Below, piece by piece: positions 6,155 to 27,899 of a stretch of DNA of 27,899 bases; within the stretch, counting starts at the first letter, position 1, and every line of letters begins with the position of its first letter. This stretch comes from a virus, in the IMG/VR virus record IMGVR_UViG_3300046529_000313, positions 1 to 27,899 of that record; one strand, written 5' to 3'. The notes beneath the pieces are model-generated. The model searched no databases and was not told the DNA's origin. It saw nothing but the letters and a program-made list of their open reading frames with translations. The translations under genes and the position numbers were made by a program.

Positions 6155-6583
6155 CTAGTAAATCAGGGACGGATCTCTTACCCGTCCCTTGATGAGAACA
6201 TCCTCGATCCACCTGCATGACAGACCGTCGTTGCTCGTTCCTGTATGATCCTTGATGAACATTTCAGAGCCGTCACTTGGCCGGAAGACCACCCAGTCTC
6301 CAACCTCGATGGTAATGCCGCCAAACTTGGCTGCGCTGTCGTCCTTGAAGGCTAGAGGGCCAATCTTCAAAACGAGAAAAACCTTTCCCTGATACCTAGA
6401 CTCTGCCAGCGATCGATCCGACAGGATAATCCCACCCTTTGTTCTCTCCGGAGGAATGTATGTCGCCACCAGAACGCTATTGTGAAACACCTCGTAATCC
6501 GTAAGAGGACCGGCAGCATCAAACAAAGCCTTGCGCGGATCGCGGCTCGCGGCCTGCGCAATAGAACGCAAATTGGCTCTCAT
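6155..6583 (-). CDS. GroES-like phage co-chaperonin
   Basis: A 142-residue protein. Residues 34-110 match the GroES beta-barrel by eye: an initial strand (SVLVATYIPPERT), a mobile-loop-like TKGGIIL at 48-54, the strand YQGKVFLVLKIGP at 64-76, and VGDWVVFRPSDG at 94-105, the counterpart of GroES 'VGDIVIFNDGYG'. It has an extra N-terminal helix and a 30-residue C-terminal extension containing a Trp and Cys. Phage co-chaperonins (T4 gp31 is the classic case) replace or assist host GroES with GroEL in folding capsid protein. Its place between portal and scaffold-like genes fits that role. The start overlaps the previous stop as ATGA. Confidence 0.8.
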   Translation of the reverse strand: MRANLRSIAQAASRDPRKALFDAAGPLTDYEVFHNSVLVATYIPPERTKGGIILSDRSLAESRYQGKVFLVLKIGPLAFKDDSAAKFGGITIEVGDWVVFRPSDGSEMFIKDHTGTSNDGLSCRWIEDVLIKGRVRDPSLIY

Positions 6584-15490: not shown

Positions 15491-15549
15491 CGATCCGTCC
15501 CGGATAGAGGACAAGAGCATGGAATGCCAACTCGCCTCAAGTTTTGGAT

Positions 15550-16053
15550 TTATCGAGTGATTCGAGTATGCCGTGTTTTCTCGAACGATTCAATTGCGAT
15601 GGCAACAGGCATGGCAAAACCATCCACTTCCATGATTAAATCGTTGCCCCTAATCGATACGACCCGCAACGATTTACCGTCCAGAGCACCATCATGGATA
15701 TCGAAACGACCGCCGATCAGTTTATAGAGAATGTCCTTTGTTTCATCATAGTGACCTAGAGCCTCCTTGCGTCTGATGTAGTCTATTTCTGTCTCCCTGA
15801 TTGTCAGGGGCTCGCCGCATGCATCAACGAAACCAAATACACGATGATCGCGGCGCACAAGATCGTACACGCTATCTCTAAGATCCATATCGACCAGTAT
15901 GTAGCCGGGGATGAGCGGATAAGATCTTTTTTCACGTTTGCGACCTCGACGTTTTTTCCAGATGATGCGCTTTGGAACATAGGCTTGTACGCCTATTTTA
16001 TCTGCAATCTTGTCCTCTGCAGATGAGAAGCAGGCCAGTGCATACCATGGCAT
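15550..16053 (-). CDS. NusG-like transcription factor (NGN plus KOW-like domain)
   Basis: A 167-residue protein, close to the usual length of NusG-family proteins. The NGN domain spans residues 2-95: it opens MPWYALACFSSAEDKIADKI and contains the hallmark YPLIPGYILVDMD at 45-57. A C-terminal domain from about 112 (GGRFDIHDGALDGKSLRVV) has the KOW-like turn and strands up to FEK at 157-159. NusG paralogues such as RfaH and LoaP ride on RNA polymerase and suppress pausing or termination over specific operons. As the first gene of a 16-kb operon it is a strong candidate late-transcription antiterminator. The basic loop WKKRRGRKREKR at 32-43 is unusual. No Shine-Dalgarno is close to the ATG. Confidence 0.83.
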   Translation of the reverse strand: MPWYALACFSSAEDKIADKIGVQAYVPKRIIWKKRRGRKREKRSYPLIPGYILVDMDLRDSVYDLVRRDHRVFGFVDACGEPLTIRETEIDYIRRKEALGHYDETKDILYKLIGGRFDIHDGALDGKSLRVVSIRGNDLIMEVDGFAMPVAIAIESFEKTRHTRITR

Positions 16054-16720: not shown

Positions 16721-16762
16721 CATCTGGCTGCGTTCCTCTCAGTTCGGGCAATGGAGGGCGCT

Positions 16763-17014
16763 ATGTGCTTCTCATTGGGTTGGCTTGAGAGCCTGCTCAT
16801 CAACATCATCATTGTTGTTGCCGTCGTTGCAATTCTTCGGCTGCTGATACCTTGGGTCTTCAGCATGCTCGGTGTCGATGGCGGAATCCTTCTGCAGATT
16901 ATCAACATTGTTGTGTGGGCGATCGTGGCAATCTTTGTGATCTATGTGGCGTTCGCCCTGATCAGTTGCCTGATTGGTGGTGGCGCGTCACTATCTCTCA
17001 TGCCACATCGATGA
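16763..17014 (+). CDS. Small two-span membrane protein
   Basis: An 83-residue protein from the ATG at 16763, which has GGAGGG upstream (an in-frame ATG at 16751 lies before that site). It opens MCFSLGWLESLLINIIIVVA, with spans at about residues 9-32 and 41-73 separated by a Gly-containing turn, and ends with a Gly/Ser-rich basic tail. I recall similar short proteins from phages and prophages of Alphaproteobacteria. The function is unknown; a holin-like or superinfection role is only a guess. Confidence 0.72.
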   Translation: MCFSLGWLESLLINIIIVVAVVAILRLLIPWVFSMLGVDGGILLQIINIVVWAIVAIFVIYVAFALISCLIGGGASLSLMPHR

Positions 17015-17124
17015 CGCCAAACAAAATGATATTGACCGCGATGCTTGTCTGCATCGCGGTCTTTGTTGGCGTGTATTTTAGTGGTGTGTGGAATTGCTGC
17101 GATCTTACGCTGATAGGCCAGTGA
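17011..17124 (+). CDS. Tiny single-span membrane protein (37 residues)
   Basis: The ATG overlaps the previous stop (ATGA). The product has one hydrophobic span (MILTAMLVCIAVFVGVYFSG) and a short tail with adjacent Cys residues (NCCDLTLIG). It ends 20 bases inside the 3' end of the convergent minus-strand gene. It is probably translated with the two-span membrane protein as a pair. Confidence 0.62.
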   Translation: MTPNKMILTAMLVCIAVFVGVYFSGVWNCCDLTLIGQ

Positions 17125-21842: not shown

Positions 21843-22376
21843 CTACTCGTAGTGATACGCAATAGTTGGCGGGCCCGAGTGTTTCCAATCCCAGACATAC
21901 CAAGCATGGTTTTCGGATGGCGCTTCGCGGATTCCGTCAACTCTCTTAAACCAGACAATACGTCGAGTGAGGATGATCTTTTTCCTAAAGGGCTGACAGG
22001 CACCAAACAAATAATTTCTACCTTTAGCCGCATCGAAATTGATTGGCAGGAGCATAATCACAATACCCTTCTCTCGTGCGGTCAGGGAGAGAGCATGATT
22101 GATAAATTTCTCTGCCAGCAGAAATGGCGGATTAGTTATAATGGCTGCGGACGTCTCATTCGGCATTTTTAAAAAATCATAACCAGTTTCGATATCGGTA
22201 GACACAACGTCTTTATCATATGCGGCTAATACATCCGTAATCTTTCCGCTTCCACACGCCGGTTCCCACACGCTGGTAATATTTCTAATGTGTGGAATAA
22301 GAGCCTCAGTAACCCAGTGAGGCGTCTCGTACAGGTCGCGCGGCTGACGCGCATACTCACTGTTGCGTTGGGACAT
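21843..22376 (-). CDS. DNA adenine methyltransferase-like protein (class I SAM)
   Basis: A 177-residue protein from the ATG at 22376, which overlaps the GcrA-like stop (TAATG). It has SAM motif I VWEPACGSGKI at about 37-46 and the catalytic motif TNPPF at 81-85, the N/DPPY/F signature of N6-adenine (or N4-cytosine) DNA methyltransferases. No target-recognition domain is evident beyond residue 110, as in compact phage enzymes. It could protect phage DNA from host restriction or alter methylation-dependent gene control. Its tight coupling to a GcrA-like gene is notable, because host GcrA acts with methylated promoters. The target sequence is unknown. Confidence 0.8.
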   Translation of the reverse strand: MSQRNSEYARQPRDLYETPHWVTEALIPHIRNITSVWEPACGSGKITDVLAAYDKDVVSTDIETGYDFLKMPNETSAAIITNPPFLLAEKFINHALSLTAREKGIVIMLLPINFDAAKGRNYLFGACQPFRKKIILTRRIVWFKRVDGIREAPSENHAWYVWDWKHSGPPTIAYHYE

Positions 22377-22855
22377 TATCGTCTCGTATTTGGAACGAAG
22401 CATCGATCAGAGTGGTGCTTGCAGTATGGTGTGTGCTCTGTCTTTGGGGCACCACAGAAAAAGAAATCTGGCTGCGACGGATCGCCAACCGGAAACCGGC
22501 AATCGAACATACCGATGGTCATCACAGTCTTTCTCTGTGGGATCGGGATCTCCGTATCTGCTGGTGCTGGCGTCATGTCGAGTTCTTCGATGTAGGCTTC
22601 TATAGGATGCGATCGTGCAAAATGCAGACGCTCTTTCTTGCGCTCTACTTTTGCCGTGTGATTGGTGTGGTTGCCGCCGTTTGGCTTGTTTCTCTTGAGC
22701 CCGATGCGGCTGCACTTGCCGATCACGGCATTGCGGTTAAGACCGTGACCTAGTTTGGTTGCTATGGCTGAGAATGCCAGATTGTCTGCGAAGAGTTTTT
22801 TCATTTCGTCGAGCAGATTTGGAAACGTAGTCCACACACTTTGTGTGATAGGCAT
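22376..22855 (-). CDS. GcrA-like cell-cycle regulator homologue
   Basis: A 159-residue protein. The N-terminal HTH (LLDEMKKLFADNLAFSAIAT, then NRNAVIGKCSRIGLKR, residues 14-55) matches the GcrA pattern 'RNAVIGK..RLGL'. The C-terminus has the second conserved module, CRFPVGDPSQPDFFFCGA at 119-136 and YCKHHSDRC at 144-152. In Caulobacter and relatives GcrA binds RNA polymerase sigma70 and methylated promoters to control cell-cycle genes. A phage copy could redirect or titrate this. The leader ACCGGGGATTGAA precedes the ATG. No GANTC site is seen in the main promoters of this window. Confidence 0.88.
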   Translation of the reverse strand: MPITQSVWTTFPNLLDEMKKLFADNLAFSAIATKLGHGLNRNAVIGKCSRIGLKRNKPNGGNHTNHTAKVERKKERLHFARSHPIEAYIEELDMTPAPADTEIPIPQRKTVMTIGMFDCRFPVGDPSQPDFFFCGAPKTEHTPYCKHHSDRCFVPNTRR

Positions 22856-26465: not shown

Positions 26466-26468
26466 ACA

Positions 26469-26537
26469 ATGCACGAAGTCTGGCTTTCGACAGCAAACAT
26501 ATCAGCGTCGCTGGCCTTTGTCCTATCGCTGATATGA
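26469..26537 (+). CDS. Tiny hydrophobic ORF (22 residues)
   Basis: The ATG lies three bases after the previous stop and the frame ends by ATGA overlap with the next tiny ORF. The product is mostly hydrophobic (TANISASLAFVLSLI). There is no clear ribosome-binding site. Weak candidate. Confidence 0.38.
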   Translation: MHEVWLSTANISASLAFVLSLI

Positions 26538-26608
26538 GCGTCGGGGATTGGATGCTGCTGGTTTGGATGGTTGCCCTGACCGGCTTTTGGGTTGGGGTTA
26601 GAACTTAG
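26534..26608 (+). CDS. Tiny single-span membrane ORF (24 residues)
   Basis: Starts by ATGA overlap with the 22-residue ORF and ends just before a strong Shine-Dalgarno. Trp-rich span (WMLLVWMVALTGFWVG). Probably a membrane peptide if translated. Confidence 0.42.
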   Translation: MSVGDWMLLVWMVALTGFWVGVRT

Positions 26609-26617
26609 GAGGGCTAA

Positions 26618-26695
26618 GTGACGTTCAGAGTTGAAATCTGGGTCTGCATATCCCACTGGGGATATCATCCCTATCCGTCACAGTGGAGAGGTTAG
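26618..26695 (+). CDS. Tiny GTG-initiated ORF (25 residues)
   Basis: Preceded by GGAGGG with ideal spacing to GTG 26618. It would encode a short Trp/Tyr-rich peptide (WVCISHWGYHPYPSQW). The coding sequence contains the ATATCCC-actg-GGGATAT palindrome at 26648-26665, so it may be a leader peptide over a regulatory site. Confidence 0.42.
   Translation: MTFRVEIWVCISHWGYHPYPSQWRG
26648..26665. promoter_or_regulatory. Operator-like perfect inverted repeat
   Basis: ATATCCC and GGGATAT separated by ACTG form an 18-base perfect palindrome. The half-site matches the CATATCCCC elements at 17582-17590, 17823-17831 and 23126-23134. It lies inside a tiny ORF and 35 bases before the next ATG. Confidence 0.62.
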
Positions 26696-27000: not shown

Positions 27001-27227
27001 GCAACAGCATGAAACCGGATGATAAAGAAGTCATCACAGCCCTTGAGCATCATATAAGCCGCCAGAGGGCCGAGATTGAGGGTCTTGTCTTGGGCCTCAA
27101 GACCTATGGTTGCCACACGTTTGATTGCGCCCTGCCAGACACGCACGGGGAAAAGCCGTGTAGCTGCGGGTGGTCTGAGGCCATTGGCAGGGTAATGACC
27201 GATTACAAAGACCTATATGGCCCTTGA
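26997..27227 (+). CDS. Small Cys-containing protein
   Basis: A 76-residue protein starting by ATGA overlap. The N-terminal half is helical. The C-terminal half has Cys/His residues CHTFDCALPDTHGEKPCSCGW, a possible metal site. It ends near the TTG-initiated gene. Small early protein of unknown role. Confidence 0.65.
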   Translation: MSNSMKPDDKEVITALEHHISRQRAEIEGLVLGLKTYGCHTFDCALPDTHGEKPCSCGWSEAIGRVMTDYKDLYGP

Positions 27228-27244
27228 GTGAACAGGAGGATGAA

Positions 27245-27427
27245 TTGACACTTAGAAAAGAGATCGAAGAACTTCTAAATCGCCACAGCATGGAAAATGT
27301 CTGCGACACGCCAGACTTCATCCTCGCCCACTATCTTGACGATTGCCTGCGGGCATTTCAAACCGCAACCCTCCAAAGAGAGGATTGGTATGGCCGCAAA
27401 AAAGAGCCAGCCGTCCTAGATGGCTAG
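27245..27427 (+). CDS. Small early protein of unknown function
   Basis: A 60-residue protein from TTG 27245, chosen because AGGAGG lies five bases upstream; an in-frame TTG at 27224 overlaps the previous stop. It begins MTLRKEIEELLNRHSMENVC, then TPDFILAHYLDDCLRAF and REDWYGRK, a pattern I recall from phage early regions. Its stop codon lies at the base of the structured stretch at 27427-27580. Confidence 0.68.
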   Translation: MTLRKEIEELLNRHSMENVCDTPDFILAHYLDDCLRAFQTATLQREDWYGRKKEPAVLDG

Positions 27428-27580
27428 TATGCGCCCTACACTGCGGGATTGATGGCAAAGTAGCCGAAGCTCCGCCGATGGAAGAATTGAACGGGTAAAG
27501 CCGCGCCACAACGGAGCACCGTAGATGGTTGTAAGTCCAGCAGGCGAGTACGAACCGGACTCACAGTGTAGGGCGGATAC
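27427..27580 (+). ncRNA. Candidate structured RNA closed by a long stem
   Basis: This gap of about 180 bases between two genes contains no convincing ORF. Its ends, GTATGCGCCCTACACTG (27427-27443) and CAGTGTAGGGCGGATAC (27564-27580), pair over 4 bp, one mismatch and 12 perfect bp. Inside, GCTCCG (27469-27474) pairs with CGGAGC (27512-27517), AGTCC (27534-27538) with GGACT (27557-27561), and GGC with GCC at 27454-27465, giving a multibranched fold of about 154 nt. It does not match hammerhead, tRNA or group I core elements. Strand is assumed from the flanking genes. Confidence 0.6.
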
Positions 27581-27606: not shown

Positions 27607-27765
27607 ATGGGTGCCCTGAAGGTGACAATTAGGCCAGACGCATTTCTTATGTCTGATGCAGAAGTTCTGGAACAAATTGAACTAGCCAAATCGTATGGCC
27701 GTCCAGATTGGGCTGTTGAAATTAAGAAAAAGAACGACGAAAGAAAAAAGGCAGTTGGTCGCTAA
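27607..27765 (+). CDS. Small basic protein (52 residues)
   Basis: ATG 27607 is preceded by AGGAGGGAGAA. The product starts MGALKVTIRPDAFLMSDAEV, with a strand then a helix, and ends in a Lys-rich tail (IKKKNDERKKAVGR). It lies directly after the structured RNA, which could regulate it. Function unknown. Confidence 0.62.
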   Translation: MGALKVTIRPDAFLMSDAEVLEQIELAKSYGRPDWAVEIKKKNDERKKAVGR

Positions 27766-27780
27766 TCGGAAGGATGTGAC

Positions 27781-27899
27781 ATGCAGATAGAAATATCGGA
27801 TGATTGGTTGCTGGCGTTTTGCGGCGCTCAGGCTGGCGGTGACAAAAGTGACATAGCAGCAGCAGTCAAAAACTATCTATACGGTCAACCGGCGACAGC
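27781..27899 (+). CDS. Partial ORF at the window edge
   Basis: ATG 27781 has GGAAGGATG upstream and the frame is open to the end of the window (39 codons). It begins MQIEISDDWLLAFCGAQAGG and is acidic at first, then Lys-containing. The C-terminus and function are unknown. Confidence 0.5.
   Translation, partial: MQIEISDDWLLAFCGAQAGGDKSDIAAAVKNYLYGQPAT

Follow-up and report, generated by a model that had tools for sequence, protein, structure and literature searches.

A candidate cis-acting structured RNA between early genes of a probable alphaproteobacterial phage

The packaging RNA (pRNA) of phi29-type packaging motors is a phage RNA with paired ends. The putRNA of phage HK022 belongs to an early operon, where it acts on RNA polymerase in antitermination; it measures about 70 nt, forms a pair of stem-loops, and is found a short way downstream of the early promoters (PMC9378689). 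The target of LoaP is a small UNCG-type hairpin in the 5' leader of an operon (PMC12691694). GOLLD and ROOL are ornate phage-encoded RNAs whose function is unknown (PMC12286853).

Here, we compare with these systems a 154-nt element found in an IMG/VR record that is linear and 27,899 bp long; “the window” below is this entire record. Our preferred reading, which we hold tentatively and which may well prove wrong, is that the early mRNA of an alphaproteobacterial phage, read from the plus strand, contains the element as a structured RNA domain acting in cis.

A structured gap in a tight gene cluster

The minus strand of the record carries genes for a terminase (phrog_38), a protein resembling phage portal/head-to-tail connecting proteins, a helicase, and others; the plus strand carries those for a RecE-like exonuclease, RecT, and NinB/Orf together with small genes. 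Within the minus-strand block there is also a gene for a protein with a Cpn10 (GroES-like) domain (6155-6583, E 1.9e-6). Since the phage encodes a GcrA-family protein (Table 1) and close relatives of its RecT occur in Devosia, Pelagibacterium, and Hyphomonas, its host is probably alphaproteobacterial.

The early genes upstream of the element mostly overlap one another, by 1-13 nt. The element takes up 154 of the 179 nt between its flanking ORFs, both of them on the plus strand. Its first nucleotide doubles as the last base of the 67-aa gene's stop codon (27425-27427), and after its final nucleotide 26 nt remain before the 52-aa ORF begins; homologue searches found no relative of this ORF. The only other large gap in the early cluster (26466-26682) holds small ORFs, including one of 24 codons. 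That a 179-nt gap has been kept among mostly overlapping genes, and that 154 nt of it are the element, is a first reason to favor the cis-acting reading. A first-pass annotation, made from the letters of the DNA, had described this gap as having no convincing ORF, and the description stands: none of the ORFs that overlap the element reaches the cut-off for a Pfam or PHROG family, no coding signal is seen, and a coding role on either strand was set aside.

The same annotation had proposed a closing stem of 17 positions, with 12 perfect base pairs plus 4 across a mismatch, and both sequence and fold bear it out. The stem, P1, opens with GUAU (4 bp), passes one mismatch, and continues through 12 perfect base pairs. 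On the minus strand, the predicted structure is a five-way junction of P1 (14+4 bp) and hairpins P2 to P5. When P2 is taken by itself, it can lengthen to 12 bp, using 4 nt that belong to the innermost part of P1.

Table 1. Positions of the element, its predicted helices, and genes referred to in the text
Feature	Position	Strand	Basis or remark
Whole structured element	27427..27580	. (either)	Folds on plus (z -4.05) and minus (z -6.85); fills most of the gap
P1 left arm, GTAT G CGCCCTACACTG	27427..27443	.	Sequence and fold
P1 right arm, CAGTGTAGGGCG G ATAC	27564..27580	.	Sequence and fold
Hairpin P2, 8 bp (27554-27561 with 27534-27541)	27534..27561	-	Predicted fold
Hairpin P3, ACC AUCUAC GGU	27518..27529	-	Predicted fold
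Long hairpin P4, GCUCCGUUGUGG ... CCAUCGGCGGAGC; inner stem 27491-27504	27469..27517	-	Predicted fold
Hairpin P5, GGC UACUUU GCC; plus reading GGC AAAGUA GCC	27454..27465	-	Predicted folds, both strands
Upstream gene, 67 aa, phrog_31227 family	27224..27427	+	E 3.5e-12; relatives found
Downstream ORF, 52 aa	27607..27765	+	Ribosome-binding-like AGGAGGGAG just upstream
GcrA-family cell-cycle regulator	22376-22855	-	Pfam GcrA E 1.1e-27; adjoins DNA methyltransferase-like gene 21843-22403
Phage-encoded NusG paralogue	15550..16053	-	Pfam NusG E 7.1e-18

Fold strength and the choice of strand

Taken whole, the element folds at -61.1 kcal/mol on the plus strand (z -4.05) and at -69.5 kcal/mol on the minus strand (z -6.85), in each case beating 200/200 dinucleotide shuffles. 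The plus-strand value counts in favor of the cis-acting reading. A scan of the whole record (about 506-508 windows) gave two outliers, one at 27427 on the minus strand (z -6.9) and one at 16941 on the plus strand (z -7.8). Across ~425 kb of this record and related phage DNA, four loci reach a z of about -6.8 or lower, or ~1 per 100 kb, which makes the fold rare without being unique; the strongly folding loci that were inspected in this DNA are mainly sets of local hairpins.

Three of these loci can be described briefly. The strongest RNA fold of the record (16941-17094, plus strand, z about -7.8) lies in a region of apparent membrane-protein ORFs (16751-17124, plus strand; 87 aa at 16751-17014 and a 33-codon ORF from 17025), itself inside the minus-strand gene block. 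Two further strong folds, again mainly hairpin sets, are found in related phage contigs at L118:9701-9854 (plus strand, z -7.0) and L125:1351-1504 (minus strand, z -6.8).

We kept the two 17-nt arms and shuffled the 120-nt interior 300 times. On the plus strand, 129/300 shuffles fold as well as the element (z -0.14), and the “at least three further helices” that had been annotated on this strand are thus not confirmed as stated. The case illustrates how, on a given strand, the closing stem may supply all the excess stability of an apparently convincing fold. On the minus strand, the interior retains a z of -3.35, with 1/300 shuffles as low. The minus-strand structure is also unusually well defined, having a frequency of 0.206 (0/300 shuffles) and an ensemble distance of 6.9 (2/300).

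These results bear directly on the reading that the gap is a neutral or decayed spacer holding no functional RNA, in which the inverted repeat and the good minus-strand fold arose by chance or mutation. Comparable folds recur in the ~425 kb, one of them (16941, plus strand) overlapping an apparent membrane-protein ORF; the plus-strand interior is no better than its shuffles; further 12-bp perfect inverted repeats are present in the record; and our searches, given below, found no homologue, promoter, or terminator. Such a spacer would, however, have to place a 12+4 bp stem precisely where a tight gene cluster has its single true gap, and it sits poorly with an exceptionally well-defined minus-strand structure and with both strands outfolding every dinucleotide shuffle. 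On balance, we judge this explanation somewhat unlikely.

The plus-strand interior, which adds nothing beyond the closing stem, and the far better folding of the minus strand also weaken the cis-acting reading, and the strand of the element is contested: folding points to minus, whereas base composition and gene context point to plus. The plus strand had been assumed in the first-pass annotation; composition and context side with that assumption and the folding statistics against it. Read on the plus strand, the element has a purine fraction of 0.597, and 44 of the 58 unpaired bases of its fold are A or G, a composition that fits a structured RNA and so favors the cis-acting reading on this strand. 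Elsewhere on the plus strand the purine fraction is 0.545 in the early genes and 0.597 in 27607-27899, and because such purine loading is normal for plus-strand coding DNA here, it would be expected equally of a neutral spacer. Read on the minus strand, the element has no unpaired G (unpaired bases U24, C18, and A12).

To calibrate both cues, we took 26 cobalamin riboswitches and 12 RNase P RNAs, 38 known RNAs in all, from genomes in the order of one alphaproteobacterial genome (G011), with a purine fraction above 0.5 taken to mark the sense strand. Composition picked the right strand in 35/38 cases and folding in 30/38. The wrong strand was never ahead by 2.8 z or more (0/38), and no true sense strand fell below a purine fraction of 0.447; each strand reading of the element therefore has one feature outside the calibration set.

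The rival on the minus strand would be a discrete noncoding RNA of 154 nt, folded as a five-helix junction. It would be antisense to the early genes and probably act in trans through protein binding. The whole-element and interior z values given above speak for it, as do the well-defined structure, in which 50/50 pairs exceed a probability of 0.5 (mean 0.95), and the calibration, in which no wrong strand led by so much. Six of its pairs are G-U, which on the plus strand would read as C-A; choosing the minus-strand fold, however, favors G-U pairs by construction. Against it, the composition is atypical of a structured RNA, the transcript would run antisense within a plus-strand operon, and on the minus strand the element has neither a sigma70-like promoter a short way upstream nor a terminator a short way downstream. 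We think such an RNA unlikely. Because the flanking genes lie on the plus strand and neither a promoter nor a terminator was found close by on the minus strand, we modestly prefer plus as the RNA strand, and the same context, with the lack of a minus-strand promoter close upstream, supports the cis-acting reading.

A further explanation is that the element works as DNA: a miniature mobile element with terminal inverted repeats, a DNA hairpin, or a protein-binding site. The 17-bp near-perfect terminal repeats, the 154-bp length, the noncoding interior, and the intergenic position are all in keeping with this, and the element does fold as single-stranded DNA (z -3.4 on plus, -3.0 on minus). A miniature inverted-repeat element present in multiple copies is rejected, since the arm pair is single in the window and a scan of 84,980 species genomes did not find its exact pattern; save for one partial match, no second copy of an arm occurs in the window at up to 2 mismatches. 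No target-site duplication is visible at the ends, where the flanks TA|GTAT and ATAC|GT differ. A DNA element is, in our view, very unlikely.

Homologues and known RNA classes

The first-pass annotation had matched the element to none of the RNA classes considered, and Rfam agrees: a covariance-model search of Rfam 15 returned nothing at the gathering cut-off and nothing at E values up to 10 on either strand. On this evidence, the element appears to belong to no Rfam 15 family, HEARO included. Several identities were also tried individually. HEARO/omega RNA (RF02033) gives no match at E up to 10, and the adjoining 52-aa ORF has no HNH match of the IscB/IsrB type, the contig ending 319 nt after the element. 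Hammerhead, twister, and pistol ribozymes were rejected, there being no CUGANGA core or pistol string and only a lone CCCGC on the minus strand that has no Rfam match. For an HDV-like nested double pseudoknot, there were eight weak descriptor matches on the minus strand and none on the plus strand, with no Rfam HDV match. The element does not fit the ARAGORN model of a tRNA or tmRNA, and by eye its ends lack the core-site pattern of an integron attC site.

Of the covariance searches that had been called for, first of Rfam and then with a custom model seeded from homologous phages, the second took the form of a single-sequence covariance model of the element, which yielded only chance-level matches and no homologue set. 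This holds for ~3.2 Mb of loci adjoining relatives of RecT, the portal, and the 67-aa protein, for whole prokaryote genomes (sets of 7, 397, 385, and 398, partly overlapping), and for 50 viral records. When the element and its flanks were compared by blastn with phages, plasmids, and Escherichia coli genomes, nothing useful emerged, and in IMG/VR exact internal motifs gave either nothing or AT-rich chance matches. BLAST against the 385 genomes returned four matches of 22-30 nt, which had no support from the covariance model and were judged to be chance. A 22-nt match in a 51-kb relative was likewise discarded, as its surroundings do not match.

The nearest relatives located come from IMG samples 3300046508 to 3300047444. 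A near-identical contig reaches only as far as window position 15501, and a relative whose portal protein is 73% identical (L344-L346) provides no comparable syntenic site because it matches mainly at late genes. In the 634-kb genome of an uncultured phage (LR745206, L018, about 1770-1950), the 67-aa protein has a homologue, and behind it lies a long, imperfect inverted repeat similar to the attC site of an integron. By every route tried, then, the element appears to be an orphan represented by a single sequence. A lone fold of this kind does not yet make up a class, and with no homologue there is no covariation, which weakens the cis-acting reading.

Proposed action and comparison with known systems

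Under the cis-acting reading, the nascent plus-strand transcript would fold into an autonomous domain closed by P1, and this domain would act on its own transcript. In the most specific form of the proposal, it would be an operon-internal element acting on elongating RNA polymerase in the manner of HK022 putRNA, perhaps together with the phage NusG paralogue; alternatively, it may serve in the processing or stabilization of the polycistronic mRNA. We infer that the element has a function, that it is read from plus, and how it acts; the identities that the first-pass annotation had suggested, a ribozyme or a riboswitch-like leader for the 52-aa ORF, are likewise conjectural.

The closest NCBIfam models to the NusG paralogue are UpxY, NusG, LoaP, and RfaH, all below cut-off, and a tblastn search of 50,697 phage records gave no match to it. 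It is a possible partner for an RNA acting on transcription, and its presence in the same phage, with putRNA as a phage precedent, favors the cis-acting reading, even if its link to the element is conjectural. Nothing ties the paralogue to the site, which weakens the reading, and any downstream terminators would be invisible because the contig ends so soon after the element.

If the element is functional, an alphaproteobacterial phage that has its own NusG paralogue would carry a class of phage RNA missing from the catalogues, and an RNA-plus-NusG antitermination system in a phage would become directly testable. We regard it as rather unlikely, however, that the element stands for an undescribed class of phage structured RNA absent from RNA catalogues, whether as a plus-strand antitermination element working with the NusG paralogue or as a compact five-helix RNA on the minus strand.

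Like phi29-type pRNA, the element has paired ends, but it has no Rfam match and this phage has a large terminase of the phrog_38 type. GOLLD and ROOL are far larger (GOLLD members often >800 nt), often lie near tRNA islands, and are catalogued in Rfam, whereas the element has no Rfam match and no tRNA is found here. HEARO/omega RNA, likewise compact, structured, and of broadly similar size, belongs to mobile elements; the element differs in having no RF02033 match and, in its adjoining 52-aa ORF, no HNH match. With LoaP and the RfaH-type NusG paralogues that have RNA or DNA targets, the resemblance lies in the phage NusG paralogue and its weak UpxY/LoaP/RfaH matches; LoaP, however, uses a UNCG-type hairpin in a 5' leader, and no such link was found for the element. 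HK022 putRNA differs from the element, which is 154 nt long, multibranched, and deep in its gene cluster, and has no sequence link to putRNA; what the two would share is the proposed mode of action and their nature as structured RNAs within the early operon of a phage.
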